From NCBI RefSeq assembly GCF_002900965.1, contig NZ_PJOM01000003.1:372001-436000 (forward strand): a DNA stretch of 64,000 nt, given 5' to 3'. The position numbers were made by a program, and so were the translations under genes. This DNA is from Pseudotabrizicola formosa (GTDB lineage Bacteria; Pseudomonadota; Alphaproteobacteria; Rhodobacterales; Rhodobacteraceae). The notes under the pieces were generated by a model. That model had not been told where the DNA came from. It searched no databases and saw only the letters and a program-made list of their open reading frames with translations. Of this stretch, positions 1,015-15,406 are shown piece after piece (positions within the stretch are counted from its first letter, which is position 1; every line of letters starts with the position of its first letter).

Positions 1015-2208
1015 TCAGCCCTTGACTGCTTTGACGATCTTCTGGGCACCGTCCTTCAGGTCGTCCGCCGCGATGACGTTCAGGCCCGAGTTGCGGATGA
1101 TGTCCTTGCCCAGTTCCACATTGGTGCCTTCCAGACGGACCACCAGCGGCACCTTGAGGCCGACCTCTTTCACCGCCGCGATCACGCCTTCGGCGATGAT
1201 GTCGCAGCGCATGATGCCACCGAAGATGTTGACCAGGATGCCTTTGACGTTCGGGTCGGAGGTGATGATCTTGAACGCCTCGGTCACCTTTTCCTTGGTG
1301 GCGCCGCCGCCGACATCAAGGAAGTTGGCGGGTTCGGCCCCGTAAAGCTTGATGATGTCCATGGTGGCCATCGCCAGACCGGCGCCGTTGACCATGCAGC
1401 CGATTTCGCCATCCAGCGCGATGTAGTTCAGGTCGAATTTCGAGGCGGCCAGTTCCTTGGGGTCTTCCTCGGTCTCGTCGCGCAGGGCGGCGATGTCGGG
1501 GTGGCGGTACATGGCATTGCCGTCGAAGGCCATCTTGGCATCCAACAGCTTCATGTTGCCGTCTTTCATGACGACCAGCGGGTTGATTTCCAGCATGTCC
1601 ATGTCTTTGTCGACGAACAGCCGGTAGAGGTTCTTGACGATCTGGCCACACTGCTTGATCTGGTTGCCGGTGAGGCCCAGGGCAAAGGCGACGCGGCGGC
1701 CGTGATAGTCGGAATAGCCTGCCGCCGGGTCGATGGTGAAGGACAGGATCTTTTCGGGCGTGTCATGCGCCACGTCCTCGATGCTCATCCCGCCTTCGGT
1801 CGAGCAGACGATGGAAATGCGGCTGGACTGGCGGTCGATCAGCAAGGCGAGATAGAGCTCGCGTTCGATGTCGGAGCCGTCTTCGATGTAGATGCGGTTG
1901 ACCTGCTTGCCCTCTTCGCCGGTCTGCACCGTCACCAGGGTGCGGCCCAGCATCTGGCGGGCGAATTCGGCGGCCTCTTCGACCGAGCGGGCCAGGCGGA
2001 CGCCGCCCTTTTCGCCAGCCTCGGCCTCCTTGAACGAGCCCTTGCCGCGGCCGCCGGCGTGGATCTGCGCCTTGACCACCCAGAGCGGGCCGTCCATTTC
2101 ACCGGCAGCGGATTTCGCCTCTTCGGCACGCAGCACAACGCGCCCGTCCGAAACGGGAACCCCGTAGGCCCGCAAAAGGGACTTGGCCTGATATTCGTGG
2201 ATGTTCAT
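1015..2208 (-). CDS. sucC: Succinyl-CoA ligase (ADP-forming) beta subunit
   Basis: SucC is the nucleotide-binding subunit of succinyl-CoA synthetase. With SucD it converts succinyl-CoA, ADP and phosphate to succinate, CoA and ATP in the TCA cycle. The 397-residue length is normal. It begins with the usual MNIHEYQAK, has the ATP-grasp signature AGGRGKG at 51-57, EINPL at 208-212, GGGAT at 300-304 and NIFGGI at 327-332. An AGAGGA ribosome site precedes the ATG. Two secreted-protein genes follow closely and sucD is not in the window. The upstream region 2284-2367 holds a striking set of palindromes that are also present ahead of sdhC, implying shared TCA control. Confidence 0.97.
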
Positions 2209-2283: not shown

Positions 2284-2297
2284 TGTTAGCGCAAAAT
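2284..2297 (-). promoter_or_regulatory. LacI-type palindrome upstream of sucC
   Basis: The plus strand reads TGTTAGCGCAAAAT. This matches 11 of 14 positions of an ideal TGTTAGCGCTAACA palindrome with a central CG, typical of LacI-family operators. It lies 76-89 bp upstream of the sucC ATG. A closer match stands in an equivalent place upstream of sdhC. CceR, a LacI-family regulator known to activate TCA genes in Rhodobacter sphaeroides, is the obvious candidate. I am assigning it by analogy and not from a verified motif. Confidence 0.5.
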
Positions 2298-2316: not shown

Positions 2317-2367
2317 TGTGATCACACTCTTCGAGGGTGTGATCACAGAAATCCGGGCAGTGATCAC
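2317..2367 (-). promoter_or_regulatory. Three GTGATCAC palindromes at exact 21-bp spacing
   Basis: Perfect GTGATCAC octamers lie at 2318-2325, 2339-2346 and 2360-2367. Two of them extend to TGTGATCACA. Their centres are exactly 21 bp apart, about two helical turns, so bound dimers would sit on one face of the DNA. The array is 110-160 bp upstream of sucC. The sdhC operon has two copies with the same spacing. The GT...AC arms would suit a GntR/FadR-type protein; AkgR, a GntR-family TCA activator described in R. sphaeroides, is a candidate by inference only. Confidence 0.7.
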
Positions 2368-6658: not shown

Positions 6659-6672
6659 TGTTTGCGCTAGCG
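6659..6672 (-). promoter_or_regulatory. Weak LacI-type site in the mdh/permease intergenic region
   Basis: TGTTTGCGCTAGCG matches 10 of 14 positions of the TGTTAGCGCTAACA pattern seen upstream of sucC and sdhC. It is 120-133 bp upstream of mdh. No GTGATCAC octamer accompanies it, so it may be chance. Confidence 0.25.
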
Positions 6673-8125: not shown

Positions 8126-8260
8126 AGCGTGCCTTTCCGGTGGGGGTTGCAGGGGGCGGGATCAGGGCTTGCCGGAAAGGCTGCGCCCGGAGTGCGTAGA
8201 AACGATTAACGGCGCGCGCGGCGCGGCGGCGGATGCTGCAATGCGGCACATTTATGCTTG

Positions 8261-8278
8261 CGATTTGTGACGAAATCG
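8261..8278 (+). promoter_or_regulatory. Palindrome upstream of mcl2
   Basis: CGATTT (8261-8266) and AAATCG (8273-8278) form a perfect 6-bp inverted repeat with a 6-bp spacer, 39-56 bp before the mcl2 ATG. The geometry suits a dimeric repressor or activator. No regulator is identified. Confidence 0.35.
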
Positions 8279-8287
8279 GAGCTTCTG

Positions 8288-8302
8288 GCGCAAGATTATT
8301 GC
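8288..8302 (+). promoter_or_regulatory. Motif shared with ccr and ecm upstream regions
   Basis: GCGCAAGATTATTGC fits the pattern CGCmAGAyTATTkC that also occurs at 24132-24146 (ccr) and 22602-22616 (ecm, minus strand). Here it is only 14 bp before the start codon, closer than in the other two, which weakens the case for a common operator. Confidence 0.35.
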
Positions 8303-8316
8303 TTGAGGTCGAATCA

Positions 8317-9171
8317 ATGCCGAAGCCTGCGCGTCCGTTCCGCTCTGTTTTGTATATCCCCGGCTCGAAGGAGCGGGCGCTGGAGAAGGCGCAAGGGCTG
8401 GCTGCTGACGCCATCATCTTTGATCTGGAAGATGCGGTGGCCCCCGAGGAGAAGACCCGCGCCCGCGACGTGCTGGCGCAGGCTTTGCGGGCCGATTATG
8501 GGCCAAGAGCGCGTATTGTGCGGATCAACGGCTTTGATACGGCGTGGGGCCGAGAGGATGCGGCGGCTTTTGCCGATCATCCGGGGGTTGATGCGGTGCT
8601 GATCCCCAAGGTCAGCACGCCGGCCGATCTGGATGCGGTGGCGGCCCTTGTGCCGGGCAAGCCGCTGTGGGCGATGATGGAAACTGCATTGGGCATGCTG
8701 AACGCGGCGGCAATTGCCGCGCATCCGGCTTTGCAGGGCATGGTGATGGGCACCAATGATCTGGCGCGGGAATTGGGGTCGCGCAATCGGGCCGACCGGC
8801 TGCCGATGATGGCGGGCTTGGGGCTGTGCCTGCTGGCGGCGCGGGCGCATGACAGGGTGATCGTGGATGGCGTCTACAATGCGTTCAAGGATGAAGACGG
8901 ATTGCGCGCCGAATGTGATCAGGGCCGCGACATGGGTTTTGACGGCAAGACGCTGATCCACCCGGCGCAGCTGGAGATTGCCAATGCCGCCTTTGCCCCC
9001 GGCGCGGCCGAGATCGATCTGGCGCGCCGCCAGATCGCGGCCTTTGATGCGGCGATTGCGCAGGGGCAGGCGGTTGCCGTGGTCGACGGCAAGATTGTGG
9101 AGAATTTGCACATTGTGACAGCCCGGGCCACTTTGGCACAGGCGGAGGCGATTGCGGGTCTGGGCGTTTAG
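8317..9171 (+). CDS. mcl2: CoA-ester lyase/thioesterase of the HpcH/citrate-lyase family, probable (3S)-malyl-CoA thioesterase
   Basis: The 284-residue protein has the family motifs RSVLYIPGS (9-17), FDLEDAVAPEEK (35-46), AMMETALGML, MVMGTNDLAREL and GFDGKTLIHPAQ, which bind Mg2+ and the CoA thioester. In R. sphaeroides two homologues divide the work. Mcl1 cleaves methylmalyl-CoA and condenses glyoxylate with acetyl-CoA; Mcl2 hydrolyses (S)-malyl-CoA to malate. The shorter length, the RSVLYIPGS start and the position between mdh and mch point to Mcl2. I took the ATG at 8317, preceded by TTGAGG. NnrU and a DUF1737 gene follow, then mch, so the four probably form one transcript. Confusion with a CitE-like lyase remains possible. 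Confidence 0.82.
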   Translation: MPKPARPFRSVLYIPGSKERALEKAQGLAADAIIFDLEDAVAPEEKTRARDVLAQALRADYGPRARIVRINGFDTAWGREDAAAFADHPGVDAVLIPKVSTPADLDAVAALVPGKPLWAMMETALGMLNAAAIAAHPALQGMVMGTNDLARELGSRNRADRLPMMAGLGLCLLAARAHDRVIVDGVYNAFKDEDGLRAECDQGRDMGFDGKTLIHPAQLEIANAAFAPGAAEIDLARRQIAAFDAAIAQGQAVAVVDGKIVENLHIVTARATLAQAEAIAGLGV

Positions 9172-9959: not shown

Positions 9960-10002
9960 GCCAGCGATGCGCGTGCTGGATGCGCCGGGGGGGCCAGCCC
10001 CG

Positions 10003-10043
10003 CCGCCACTGGCTCTTCGGACCAGTGGCAGAGCCAGTGGCGG
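10003..10043 (+). repeat. Stem-loop with two mutually exclusive folds upstream of mch
   Basis: CCGCCACTGGCTCT (10003-10016) pairs perfectly with AGAGCCAGTGGCGG (10030-10043), a 14-bp stem with a 13-base loop. The loop itself contains CCAGTGGC (10022-10029), which can pair instead with GCCACTGG (10005-10012). The two hairpins compete for the same left arm. The element is 39 bp before the mch GTG and could attenuate, process or insulate mch transcription. Confidence 0.55.
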
Positions 10044-10050
10044 CCCCCGG

Positions 10051-10070
10051 GGATATTTGGAAACAGATAA
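10051..10070 (+). repeat. Dispersed intergenic element, copy 1
   Basis: GGATATTTGGAAACAGATAA follows a C/G-rich run just before the mch ribosome site. A copy matching 18 of 20 bases, also after a C-run, is at 18580-18599. Both lie at gene borders, suggesting a dispersed non-coding repeat. Confidence 0.55.
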
Positions 10071-10081
10071 GGAGGTGCCGC

Positions 10082-11110
10082 GTGAAGACCAATCCGGGCC
10101 GGTTTTTTGAGGATTATCGTCTGGGAGAGGTGATTTCCCATGCGGTGCCGCGCACTGTATCGGGAGGGGAGCGGGCGCTGTATCATGCGCTCTATCCGGC
10201 GCGGCATGCGGTGTATTCGTCGGATCAGTTTGCGCAGAGCTGCGGGCTGCCTGCCGCGCCGCTGGATGATCTGGTGGCGTTTCATACCGTGTTCGGCAAG
10301 ACCGTGCCCGATATCAGCCTGAACGCGATTGCCAATCTAGGCTATGCCGAGGGACGCTGGCTGTATCCGGTTTATCCGGGCGATACGCTGCGGGCGCAGA
10401 GCACGGTGATCGGGTTGAAGGAAAACTCCAGCGGGACATCGGGCGTGGTCTATGTGCGCACGCGCGGCTTCAATCAGGATGACGTTGCGGTGCTTGATTA
10501 TGTGCGCTGGGTGATGGTGCGCAAGGGCCGGCCGGAGGCACCTGCGCCTGCGCCGGTGGTGCCCAAGCTGGCATCCGTTGTGGCACCCGGGGATCTGGTG
10601 GTGCCGAAAGGGCTGGATTTCACCCGCTATGATTTTGCGCAGGCCGGCGAGCGGCACCGCTGGGGCGATTATGCGGTGGGCGAGCGGATCGACCATGTCG
10701 ATGGCGTGACGGTGGAAGAGGCCGAGCATATGCTGGCCACGCGGTTGTGGCAGAACACGGCACGGGTGCATTTTGACGCCACGGTGCGGGAAGATGGCAA
10801 GCGGCTGATCTATGGCGGTCATATCATCAGTGTGGCGCGGGCGCTGTCGTTCAACGGGCTGGCCAATGCGCAGATGATCGTGGCGCTGAACGCGGGCGTG
10901 CATGCCAATCCGTGTTTTGCCGGCGATACGGTGCGCGCCTGGTCAGAGGTGCTCGACCGGGCAGAGACGGCCGCGCCGGGCGTGGGCGCGGTGCGGTTGC
11001 GGCTGGTCGCGACGCGGGGGGGCGATCCCTTTGTCTTGCGCGACACGCAGGGCAAGTATCTGCCCGAGGTCTTGCTGGATCTGGATTATTGGGCGCTGAT
11101 GCCGCTGTGA
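10082..11110 (+). CDS. mch: Mesaconyl-CoA (methylmalyl-CoA) hydratase
   Basis: Mch hydrates mesaconyl-CoA to erythro-beta-methylmalyl-CoA in the ethylmalonyl-CoA pathway. The protein has 342 residues, matching characterised Mch, and is a tandem hot-dog (MaoC-like) protein. The N-terminal repeat begins FFEDYRLGEVI and contains YSSDQFAQSCGLPAAPLDD. The C-terminal repeat begins HRWGDYAVGERIDHVDG and carries the LYGGH-like segment LIYGGHIISVARALSFNGL. I use the GTG at 10082, which has GGAGGTG 6 bp upstream; an earlier frame start would read through the stem-loop. With ccr, ecm and mcl2 in the same window the pathway assignment is strong. Confidence 0.92.
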   Translation: MKTNPGRFFEDYRLGEVISHAVPRTVSGGERALYHALYPARHAVYSSDQFAQSCGLPAAPLDDLVAFHTVFGKTVPDISLNAIANLGYAEGRWLYPVYPGDTLRAQSTVIGLKENSSGTSGVVYVRTRGFNQDDVAVLDYVRWVMVRKGRPEAPAPAPVVPKLASVVAPGDLVVPKGLDFTRYDFAQAGERHRWGDYAVGERIDHVDGVTVEEAEHMLATRLWQNTARVHFDATVREDGKRLIYGGHIISVARALSFNGLANAQMIVALNAGVHANPCFAGDTVRAWSEVLDRAETAAPGVGAVRLRLVATRGGDPFVLRDTQGKYLPEVLLDLDYWALMPL

Positions 11111-11119
11111 GGCAAGCTT

Positions 11120-11148
11120 GTGATCACGCCCTGAAAATTCGTGATCAC
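11120..11148 (+). promoter_or_regulatory. Two GTGATCAC palindromes, 21 bp apart, upstream of sdhC
   Basis: Perfect GTGATCAC octamers at 11120-11127 and 11141-11148 have centres exactly 21 bp apart. This is the spacing of the three copies upstream of sucC. They lie 165-193 bp before the sdhC ATG, just after the mch stop. The same octamer also occurs by chance inside coding DNA (11673, 45633 and 48207). The phased spacing is therefore the real evidence, not the octamer alone. Confidence 0.7.
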
Positions 11149-11167
11149 AAAGGCCGATTATTTCCGG

Positions 11168-11181
11168 TGTTATCGCTAAAA
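11168..11181 (+). promoter_or_regulatory. LacI-type palindrome upstream of sdhC
   Basis: TGTTATCGCTAAAA matches 12 of 14 positions of the symmetric TGTTAGCGCTAACA. Its centre is 30 bp from the nearer GTGATCAC centre, against 31 bp for the equivalent pair at sucC. This conserved order and distance suggests two regulators acting together on TCA genes. A CceR-type LacI activator is the candidate. Confidence 0.55.
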
Positions 11182-11312
11182 TGCTGCGGATGCGGCATTG
11201 CGAGACGTGACAGGCCCGAAAAAAGCGCTATTCAGTGACAGAGCAACCGAAGCGCGCCCCGGACCGGACCAGATGACGGCCCCGGGACCAGCCAGCGACG
11301 AAGGAAACCGAG

Positions 11313-11699
11313 ATGGCACATGTCAATCAGGCCAAGCGGCCGCTTTCCCCGCACCTGCAGATTTATCGGCCGCAGCTGACCTCGATCACCTCGATCCTGA
11401 CGCGGATCACCGGAAATGCGCTGATCGTAGCCACGGTGCTGGCGGTCTGGTGGCTGCTGGCGGCGGCCACCTCGCCCGAGTATTTTGCGACCGCCAATGC
11501 GGTGGCGACCAGCTGGTTTGGGGATCTTGTGTTCACCGGGTCGCTTTGGGCCGTTTGGTATCATTACCTCGCAGGTCTGCGGCATCTGTATTTCGATGCA
11601 GGCAAGGGGCTGGACATTCCGACGGCGGAAAAGCTGGGCTGGGGTATCATCATCGGATCGGTCGTGCTGACCGTGATCACAATTTTTCTGGTTCAGTAA
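11313..11699 (+). CDS. sdhC: Succinate dehydrogenase cytochrome b556 subunit
   Basis: SdhC anchors complex II in the inner membrane and supplies heme and quinone ligands. The 128-residue protein has three membrane helices and the typical N-terminus RPLSPHLQIYRPQLTSITSI. The heme-ligand motif HYLAGLRH spans 84-91. An AAGGAAACC site precedes the ATG. It opens the operon sdhC-sdhD-sdhA-lipoprotein-lipoprotein-sdhB, which ends at a clear terminator at 15451. The 200-bp upstream region carries the palindromes shared with sucC. Confidence 0.96.
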   Translation: MAHVNQAKRPLSPHLQIYRPQLTSITSILTRITGNALIVATVLAVWWLLAAATSPEYFATANAVATSWFGDLVFTGSLWAVWYHYLAGLRHLYFDAGKGLDIPTAEKLGWGIIIGSVVLTVITIFLVQ

Positions 11700-11711: not shown

Positions 11712-12083
11712 ATGCGGTATCTTACCGATCGTAAGCGGGCCGTTGGCCGGGGCGCTTCGGGCACCGGGACGGAACATCACTGGGCCATGCAGGTGTCTTC
11801 GGTCGGGCTGGCCTTGCTGTTGCCGGTCTGGCTCTATGTCTTTGGCTCGGCGCTTGGCAGCACGCAGGCAGAGGTGGTGGCCACCTTCTCGCGTCCGTTT
11901 CCGGCGATCCTGACAGCCTTGCTGCTGGTGGTGGGCATGAAGCATTTTGCCAGCGGCGCGCAGATGATGATTGAAGATTACGCCCAGGGCACCGCGCGGA
12001 AGGTTGCCGTCATTCTGGTGACCTGTCTGGCGTGGGTCGTGGCGGCGACGGGGCTGTTTGCCCTGGCGCGCATGGCGTTGTGA
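11712..12083 (+). CDS. sdhD: Succinate dehydrogenase membrane anchor subunit
   Basis: SdhD is the second membrane anchor of complex II and helps form the ubiquinone site. The protein is 123 residues with three helices. The N-terminal segment [18 protein letters not shown] is conserved in alphaproteobacterial SdhD. The heme/quinone region is [18 protein letters not shown], with the His at about 78 and the Asp/Tyr pair (IEDYA) at about 91. It starts 12 bp after sdhC and is followed 10 bp later by sdhA, so tight cotranscription is expected. Confidence 0.94.
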
Positions 12084-12093
12084 AGGAAAGAAC

Positions 12094-13896
12094 ATGACGG
12101 CTTATCCTTATGAAGTGCACGACTATGACGTGGTCGTGGTGGGGGCTGGTGGTGCTGGATTGCGCGCCACGCTGGGCATGGCAGAGCAGGGGCTGCGCAC
12201 CGCCTGTGTGACCAAGGTGTTCCCGACCCGCAGCCATACGGTGGCGGCACAGGGCGGCATCGCGGCGTCACTGGGCAATATGGGCCCGGACAGCTGGCAA
12301 TGGCACATGTATGACACCGTGAAGGGGTCGGACTGGCTGGGCGACACGGACGCGATGGAATATCTGGCGCGTGAGGCGCCAAAGGCTGTGTACGAGCTTG
12401 AACATTACGGCGTGCCGTTTTCGCGCACCGAAGAGGGCAAGATCTATCAACGCCCCTTTGGCGGCCACACGACGGAATATGGCGAAGGCCCGCCGGTACA
12501 GCGCACCTGTGCCGCCGCCGACCGCACCGGGCACGCGATCCTGCACACGTTGTATGGGCAGAGCCTGAAGAACAACGCTGAATTCTACATCGAATATTTC
12601 GCGCTGGACCTGATCATCACTGATGGGCGCTGCACGGGCGTGGTGGCGTGGAAGCTGGATGACGGCAGCATGCATGTGTTCAACGCCAAGATGGTGGTGC
12701 TGGCCACGGGCGGCTATGGCCGGGCCTATTTCTCGGCGACCAGCGCCCATACCTGCACCGGCGACGGTGGCGGCATGGTGGCGCGGGCCGGGTTGCCGTT
12801 GCAGGATATGGAATTCGTGCAATTCCATCCGACCGGCATCTATGGCTCGGGCTGTCTGATCACCGAAGGCGCGCGCGGTGAGGGCGGGTATCTGACCAAC
12901 AGCAATGGCGAGCGGTTCATGGAACGCTATGCGCCGCATTACAAGGATCTGGCCCCGCGCGACTATGTTAGTCGCTGCATGACGCTGGAAATCCGCGAAG
13001 GCCGGGGCGTGGGCGCGAATGGTGACCATATCAGCCTGCACCTGAACCACCTGCCCAAGGAAACGCTGGACCTGCGCTTGCCCGGTATTTCTGAAAGCGC
13101 CCGCATCTTTGCCGGGGTGGATCTGACCAAAGAGCCGATCCCGGTGCTGCCGACCGTGCATTACAACATGGGCGGTATCCCGACCAATTATTGGGGTGAG
13201 GTGCTCAACCCCACCGCAGACAACCCCGATGCGATCTTCCCCGGCCTGATGGCGGTGGGCGAGGCGGGCTGTGCATCGGTGCATGGCGCGAACCGGTTGG
13301 GGTCGAACTCTCTGATCGATCTGGTGGTGTTTGGCCGGGCGGCTGCGATCCGGGCCGGCAAGGTGGTGGACCCGGAGGCGGCGACACCGGCAACCAATGT
13401 GGCGGAAGTGGATCGGGCGCTGTCGCGTTTTGATGGTTTGCGCCATGCAAACGGAGCGATCGGCACCGCCGAACTGCGGCTGGACATGCAAAAGACCATG
13501 CAGGCCGATGCGGCGGTGTTCCGCACCGACAAGACGCTTGCGGAAGGCGAGCGCAAGATGACCGAGATTGCCGGGCGTGTCGCCGATCTGAAGGTGACCG
13601 ACCGCAGCCTGATCTGGAACAGCGATCTGATGGAGACGCTGGAACTGACCAACCTGATGCCAAATGCCCTGGCCACGATTTACGGCGCCCATGCCCGCAC
13701 CGAAAGCCGCGGTGCCCATGCGCATGAGGATTACCCGACGCGCGATGACGCCAATTGGCGCAAGCACAGCCTTGCGCATGTCGATGGCAACAAGGTGACC
13801 CTGAGCTACCGTGCCGTGCACACCGACCCGCTGACGACAGAGGCGGAAGGCGGCATCAGCCTCAAGAAAATCGCCCCGGCAGAGCGGAAGTTCTGA
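12094..13896 (+). CDS. sdhA: Succinate dehydrogenase flavoprotein subunit
   Basis: SdhA oxidises succinate to fumarate using covalently bound FAD. The protein is 600 residues, the usual length. The FAD dinucleotide motif [13 protein letters not shown] is near 14-26. The flavin-linking His is in [12 protein letters not shown]. The substrate segment is [20 protein letters not shown], and the capping-domain/catalytic Arg region follows ([16 protein letters not shown]). The true start is the ATG at 12094, with GGAAAG upstream; a longer frame reads back into sdhD. Two small lipoprotein genes separate it from sdhB. Confidence 0.98.
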
Positions 13897-14629: not shown

Positions 14630-15406
14630 ATGGTTCAATTCACGCTTCCCAAAAACAGCACCATCCGCACCGGCAAGACCTGGCCGAAGCCGGAAGGCAA
14701 GAATGTGCGGAAATTCCAGATCTATCGCTGGAATCCGGATGATGGGAAAAACCCGCAGGTCGATACCTATTTCGTCGATATGGACAGCTGCGGCCCGATG
14801 GTTCTGGACGCGCTGATCAAGATCAAGACCGAGATTGACCCGACCCTGACCTTCCGCCGGTCCTGCCGCGAGGGGATTTGCGGCTCTTGCGCAATGAACA
14901 TTGACGGCATCAACACGCTGGCCTGTATCTATGGGCTGGACGAGGTGAAGGGCGATGTGAAGATCTACCCGCTGCCGCATCTGCCGGTGATCAAGGATCT
15001 GATCCCCGATCTGACGCATTTCTATGCCCAGCACGCCAGCATCATGCCCTGGCTGGAAACCAAGACCAACCGGCCCGCGAAAGAGTGGCGCCAGTCGATT
15101 GAAGACCGCGAAAAGCTGGACGGGTTGTATGAATGTGTGATGTGCGCGTCCTGCAGCACGTCTTGCCCCAGCTATTGGTGGAACGGCGACAAGTATCTGG
15201 GGCCGGCCGCCTTGCTGCACGCCTACCGTTGGATCATCGACAGCCGCGATGAAGCGACGGGGGAACGGCTGGACGATCTGGAAGATCCGTTCAAGCTGTA
15301 CCGTTGCCACACCATCATGAACTGCGCCAAGACCTGCCCCAAGGGCCTGAACCCGGCAAAGGCGATTGCCGAGATCAAGAAGATGATGGTCGAGCGGGTG
15401 GTATAA
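14630..15406 (+). CDS. sdhB: Succinate dehydrogenase iron-sulfur subunit
   Basis: SdhB passes electrons from FAD to ubiquinone through three Fe-S clusters. The 258-residue protein carries all ligands: [2Fe-2S] in [16 protein letters not shown] with a further Cys in TLAC, [4Fe-4S] in [16 protein letters not shown], and [3Fe-4S] in [17 protein letters not shown]. It closes the sdh operon and is followed by an excellent terminator. A hypothetical minus-strand gene overlaps its last 32 bp. Confidence 0.98.

Follow-up and report, generated by a model that had tools for sequence, protein, structure and literature searches.

Paired AkgR-type octamers, two helical turns apart, upstream of sdhC and sucC in Pseudotabrizicola formosa and other Rhodobacteraceae: a probable operator of two TCA operons

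The window analyzed here, a 64-kb stretch of the genome of Pseudotabrizicola formosa, carries on its forward strand a succinate dehydrogenase cluster arranged as sdhC-sdhD-sdhA, two small ORFs and sdhB. The cytochrome b556 subunit is encoded by sdhC (11313..11699; TIGR02970), the membrane anchor by sdhD (11712..12083; TIGR02968), the flavoprotein subunit by sdhA (12094..13896; TIGR01816) and the iron-sulfur subunit by sdhB (14630..15406; NF004616), each assigned by a match above the cut-off of the respective model. On the reverse strand, sucC (1015..2208), coding for the beta subunit of succinyl-CoA ligase, heads a row whose other members, sucD, sucA, sucB and lpd, named from their translations, lie past the left edge of the window on the same strand. 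A convergent GntR gene ends this row beside lpd (L109:9928-10578; contig C8:363928-364575). Between sucC and sdhC lie a CitE/malyl-CoA-lyase-like gene (8233-9171) and a 2-methylfumaryl-CoA-hydratase-like gene (9980-11110), both with matches below NCBIfam cut-offs, and similar ORFs are found in L152; we assume that they may belong to the ethylmalonyl-CoA pathway.

Upstream of sdhC, the octamer GTGATCAC occurs twice on the forward strand. Octamer 1 (11120..11127) is set off by nine bases from the stop codon of the preceding gene, for which 2-methylfumaryl-CoA hydratase is among the best, though weak, matches, and octamer 2 (11141..11148) follows at 21 bp start to start, as the earlier note had described. 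Upstream of sucC, the same octamer is found on the reverse strand at 2318..2325, closest to the gene, and again at 2339..2346 and 2360..2367, in two further steps of 21 bp. The layout claimed to be common to both operons thus holds for the phased octamers, but sucC has three of them (2318, 2339 and 2360) instead of two. In Rhodobacter sphaeroides, GTGATCAC has been reported as the motif of AkgR, an activator that belongs to the GntR family (PMC6365646; like the other papers cited, covered here in part).

Altogether, eight copies of the octamer are present in the 64-kb window, compared with 0.91 expected, and none of 100 shuffled sequences reached eight. When eight octamers were placed randomly, at least three pairs 8-40 bp apart were obtained with P = 5e-5, and three pairs at exactly 21 bp in none of 20,000 trials; the clustering of octamers at 21 bp is beyond chance. 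The copies at 11673, 45633 and 48207, previously noted as lying in coding DNA, are indeed all inside ORFs. Elsewhere in this genome, a 33-bp octamer pair and mismatched 21-bp pairs at C1:340565 and C1:486154 all lie inside ORFs, and exact pairs are also found at spacings of 12 and 18 bp (L011, L013). With at most 30 bp between the octamers, the genome holds six exact pairs, three of which are those of sucC and sdhC.

The sdhC promoters of relatives were taken from the best 80 of 374 SdhC matches, ranked on protein similarity with no use of the promoter, and were searched for octamer pairs at spacings of 18-24 bp with at most one mismatch per octamer. The earlier note had named a lack of the pair in homologous sdhC regions as a result that would speak against its idea; the pair was instead kept in 80/80 of these relatives (best 80 of 374), with both octamers exact in 75 and one mismatch in five. 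The single-base variants (L022, L054, L071, L081 and L089) are natural variants of the pair. With the window included, the spacing is 21 bp in 61 promoters (58 exact pairs and three with one mismatch) and 20 bp in the other 20 (18 exact and two with one mismatch), again among the best 80 of 374. The claim of a spacing of exactly 21 bp is therefore correct for the window and 61/81 sdhC promoters, and has to be widened to 20 bp for 20/81. For exact octamers within 450 bp upstream of sdhC in the 81 promoters, 20 and 21 bp were the only spacings shorter than 91 bp. A further exact GTGATCAC lies 91-113 bp 5' of octamer 1 in 18/20 promoters with 20-bp spacing (e.g., L033, L038, L041, L048 and L068), and 99-175 bp 5' of octamer 1 in 4/61 promoters with 21-bp spacing.

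For sucC, the comparison comprised the 27/80 loci whose fetched DNA includes the start of the gene. All 27 of these loci have a 21-bp pair before sucC, and seven have the triple, one of them with a mismatch. Together with the 80/80 sdhC relatives, this bears out the proposal of a regulatory code common to sucC and sdhC and carried by the phased octamers. In the sucC promoter alignment, the columns of the -35 and -10 elements are weak. The exact octamer is absent from the 18 kb holding sucD-sucA-sucB-lpd-akgR, which suggests that the sucC promoter may drive the entire gene row.

Among the explanations that compete with a phased operator, the one that survives best holds that the octamers are independent AkgR sites, whose spacing was inherited by descent and has no mechanical meaning. 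The relatives do share ancestry, and in the 61 sdhC promoters with 21-bp spacing the mean pairwise identity of the spacer (42%) is somewhat above that of the upstream flank in the same set (31%), the two octamers standing at 99.6 and 99.2%, partly by construction since at most one mismatch was allowed. Yet short spacings in the 81 sdhC promoters are confined to 20 and 21 bp while the letters of the spacer diverge, sucC and sdhC have a common spacing despite spacers that are not alike, and the third sucC copy holds the 21-bp step in 7/27 relatives. Moreover, in three loci a spacing of 20 bp at sdhC stands beside one of 21 bp at sucC, indicating that one base is tolerated; this is a drift of one base, not of half a turn, and no half-turn change was seen in the sdhC and sucC loci compared. 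We consider independent sites unlikely.

The position of the pair relative to the start of transcription can be estimated from a promoter-like element. The hexamer GTGACA (11207..11212, forward strand), a putative -35 element, lies 66 bp, start to start, from octamer 2 and is followed 16 bp downstream by TATTCA (11229..11234, forward strand), a putative -10 element. Measured in the same way, GTGACA lies at exactly +66 in 49/81 sdhC promoters and at +64 to +68 in 60/81; no perfect GTGACA occurs between +30 and +109 in 21/81. When the 60 promoters were aligned on GTGACA, a conserved, TATTCA-like block, gCgcTATtcAg, emerged 16 bp downstream. A scan with the strict sigma-70 consensus did not call the element. 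We infer from this conservation that GTGACA-N16-TATTCA is likely the sdhC promoter, in which case the centers of the octamers would lie near -97 and -118. The distance of 66 bp is usual in both the 20- and the 21-bp class, which suggests that octamer 2 may be the anchor and octamer 1 a helper.

A second type of site accompanies the octamers. The LacI-like (CceR-type) palindrome TGTTATCGCTAAAA lies 5' of sdhC at 11168..11181 on the forward strand and matches TGTTAGCGCTAACA at 12/14 positions. Its center is 30 bp from the center of octamer 2, the sense in which the distance and score given in the earlier note are right, and the edge-to-edge gap is 19 bp. The distance of 31 bp at sucC was confirmed as well, again between the center of the palindrome (2284..2297, reverse strand; 11/14) and that of the nearest octamer. 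A third palindrome, without octamers, lies 5' of mdh (6659..6672, reverse strand; 11/14). In a scan of the 64 kb with TGTTAGCGCTAACA, a yardstick picked after the sites had been seen, the sdhC site was the best match (12/14), and matches of at least 11/14 were otherwise found only before mdh and sucC. The pattern TGTTATCGATAACA, with up to three mismatches allowed, gave the sdhC site as its one match in the window, compared with 0.36 expected, a number equaled by 25/100 shuffles: taken alone within the window, the LacI-like site is not beyond chance.

What gives this site weight is that it recurs at a constant position among relatives. Of 81 sdhC promoters (the window and the best 80 of 374), 38 have a LacI-like match of at least 10/14 placed +26 to +29 relative to octamer 2; all 38 are of 21-bp spacing, and none of the 20 with 20-bp spacing has it. 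At +27/+28, 37 promoters have a match, compared with ~0.04 expected from background for two offsets in 81 promoters. In three sdhC promoters, a LacI-like match lies just 5' of octamer 1. The idea of the LacI-type part as a set component did not hold, the match being missing from its expected place in 43/81 sdhC promoters; the LacI-like site appears to be a real but optional part of sdhC promoters. With GTGACA and TATTCA read as -35 and -10, it would be centered near -66. Promoters of the 20-bp class, which lack the site, may rely instead on the distal third AkgR site.

This optional character also bears on the proposal of a single, obligate composite operator, made up of the LacI-like site plus the octamers and read by a CceR-AkgR complex, a proposal that we regard as very improbable. 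The fixed offset of +27/+28 wherever the site exists is what such a complex would leave behind. Against it stand the 43/81 promoters that lack the site at this place, including all 20 with 20-bp spacing, and the mdh site, which has no octamers at all.

The palindromes resemble the sites of a described regulator. In R. sphaeroides, RSP_1663 (CceR, of the LacI family) is predicted to control sdh, mdh and other genes through the motif [AGT]GTT N6-8 AAC[ACT] (PMC4344238), and CceR senses 6-phosphogluconate (PMC5507952, PMC4419725). The TGTT-N6-AACA type of palindrome is likewise found before sdhC, sucC and mdh of the window, and the mdh site (6659-6672) fits the published prediction that mdh is controlled by the LacI regulator. 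Unlike the described system, the sdhC and sucC copies are one base off the half-sites: the sdhC site reads TGTT-N6-AAAA and the sucC site ATTT-N6-AACA, and in both, one half is perfect while the other differs at a single position from the CceR half-site in print. Nor is the site a constant feature of sdhC promoters. The CceR orthologue of this genome (L158) is 80% identical to the R. sphaeroides product of a LacI gene ~15 kb from pckA, which would, from its position, correspond to RSP_1663. CceR is reported to activate TCA genes (Imam, mBio, 2015, the primary paper on AkgR and CceR), and a site near -66 would be a plausible position for CceR as an activator, in agreement with that role.

Other LacI regulators have been linked to the same pathway. 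GapR, a LacI regulator of Rhodobacteraceae, has mdh among its targets, whereas sdh and suc are not named among them in the passages of PMC4052901 covered; GapR and CceR are probably one protein. PckR in Rhizobiales and GluR in Caulobacterales are likewise LacI regulators predicted for TCA operons, but according to the same passages they are not orthologous to GapR and recognize other motifs (PMC4052901).

The octamers point to AkgR. RSP_0981, the GntR-family regulator AkgR, is predicted to control sucCD, sdh and akgdh in R. sphaeroides (PMC4344238). The AkgR regulon resembles the window in its octamer GTGATCAC, in its sdh and suc/akgdh targets and in the family of its regulator. In G051, the genome that we took as R. 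sphaeroides 2.4.1, 21-bp pairs lie before both sucC and sdhC, and the second ORF downstream of sdhB is a GntR gene, a placement that fits the number RSP_0981; from this position we infer that the gene is RSP_0981. The GntR protein linked to suc in P. formosa (L109:9928-10578) is 83% identical to it and is thus referred to as the AkgR orthologue; it is a GntR-family protein of the FCD type. The identical palindrome GTGATCAC is also described for the GntR regulator PS417_07240 of the deoxyribonate cluster of Pseudomonas simiae, which differs in that its catabolic cluster is preceded by a single site (-47 to -40) and is 32% identical to AkgR (PMC6365646). In an alignment with three other FCD proteins, H141 and H184 of the AkgR orthologue are common to all, and the D-x3-H position is N in the AkgR orthologue and D in L101, another FCD-type GntR protein of this genome; judging from these residues, the AkgR orthologue may have an altered metal or ligand site.

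In a sample of 120 family genomes, 106 contain an exact pair whose octamers are separated by 2-32 bp, and the occurrence of such a pair follows that of the AkgR orthologue: 103 genomes have both, three the pair only, one AkgR only and 13 neither (Fisher p = 9e-14, phi 0.85; counts ignore ancestry). A genome whose best match is 39% identical (G054) was scored as lacking AkgR, and scoring it as present would give 103/3/2/12 and p = 4e-12; another (G033), with a match 47% identical on the same contig as the pair, was scored as having it. The one genome with AkgR only, G040, carries two 21-bp pairs 7.5 kb apart, with one changed base each. Those with the pair only are G096 (77% complete, no match), G019 (91% complete, best match 37% identical) and G114 (100% complete, best matches 34-35% identical). 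In the mismatched 21-bp search of the 14 pair-less genomes, the two pairs of G040 were found along with one place with three mismatches each in G017 and G102, both of which we take for probable chance matches. On contig C12 of G000, two FCD-GntR matches of equal score (1804-2178 and 84593-84967), the first near the contig start, may represent a circular contig that overlaps itself, or else a genuine duplication.

In the first locus search, the queries were 16 of the 22 FCD matches of this genome, and the co-occurrence test covered two of the 22 FCD-type GntR genes, the suc-linked GntR and L101. The L101-type protein (C1:574389 in this genome) was our first guess for the binder because it was near sdhC in 4/80 relatives (best 80 of 374), ~7-9 kb downstream; it was dropped in view of the co-occurrence test and the gene order of R. 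sphaeroides. That the octamers are bound by some other GntR protein, of which L101 is an example, is likewise very improbable. L101 does co-occur with the pair (87/19/2/12 in the 120 genomes, p = 9e-7; counts ignore ancestry), and this genome has 20 further FCD genes as candidates. However, L101 is absent from 19/106 pair-bearing genomes and present in 2/14 pair-less ones, its phi is 0.50 against 0.85 for the suc-linked GntR, and the R. sphaeroides GntR gene just after sdhB is of the suc-linked type.

The spacing also recurs in the wider family. Among the 75 plus-strand pairs listed, from 37 of the 106 pair-bearing genomes, 64 are spaced by 21 bp, four by 20 bp and seven elsewhere (12, 18, 18, 24, 24, 27 and 31 bp), and each of the 37 genomes listed has a pair at 20 or 21 bp. 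In a class-wide draw searched for the exact 21-bp pattern only, 5/289 genomes were positive, three of them being among the four family members drawn. The notion that GTGATCAC is a common word or methylation target and its pairs coincidental has a negligible probability: the octamer occurs in coding DNA too, but no shuffled window matched the observed count, the spacing spectrum of the listed family pairs contradicts it, and the reversed-pattern control gave 0 in each of the 120 genomes.

In our favored reading, to which we assign a probability of roughly 0.87, the octamer pair is an operator at which the AkgR orthologue, bound as two phased dimers, activates sdhCDAB and the sucC row, with the CceR site as an auxiliary. 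Two AkgR dimers would be neighbors on the same side of the DNA 5' of sdhCDAB, at a distance of two helical turns, and the same two-turn rule would apply before sucC, at the head of the sucC-sucD-sucA-sucB-lpd row. The binding of the AkgR orthologue at the sdhC pair is a prediction. Bound there, the dimers would switch on both TCA operons; at sdhC, their positions would be about -97 and -118 relative to the putative start. In lineages that have it, the LacI-like site at about -66 would add control by sugar status, that is, by 6-phosphogluconate. A rigid spacing with free spacer letters could be the outcome of a direct contact between the dimers or of their joint contact with RNA polymerase, and the two AkgR dimers may bind cooperatively. 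A stricter version, which we offer tentatively and at somewhat less than even odds, is that activation by AkgR requires an assembly of two dimers, or three at sucC in some lineages, phased by two turns, with CceR docking optionally between AkgR and RNA polymerase; the spacing itself would then define the targets, and the family would share a TCA module of fixed geometry ~100 bp 5' of the start.

The regulon is already known from R. sphaeroides, with RSP_0981 predicted for sdh and suc and RSP_1663 for sdh, as given in the papers covered in part here. The geometry is what looks new, namely the two-turn pair and the distance, commonly 66 bp, between its near octamer and a promoter-like GTGACA. 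The passages on AkgR covered here make no mention of the fixed 20/21-bp pair, the sucC triple or the 66-bp promoter distance.

Through co-occurrence in 120 genomes, the control of two TCA operons in Rhodobacteraceae is tied to one regulator. A search for two copies of GTGATCAC whose starts are 20-21 bp apart singles out few places per genome, most often two, and the phasing of the octamers permits a clean test of cooperative GntR binding.
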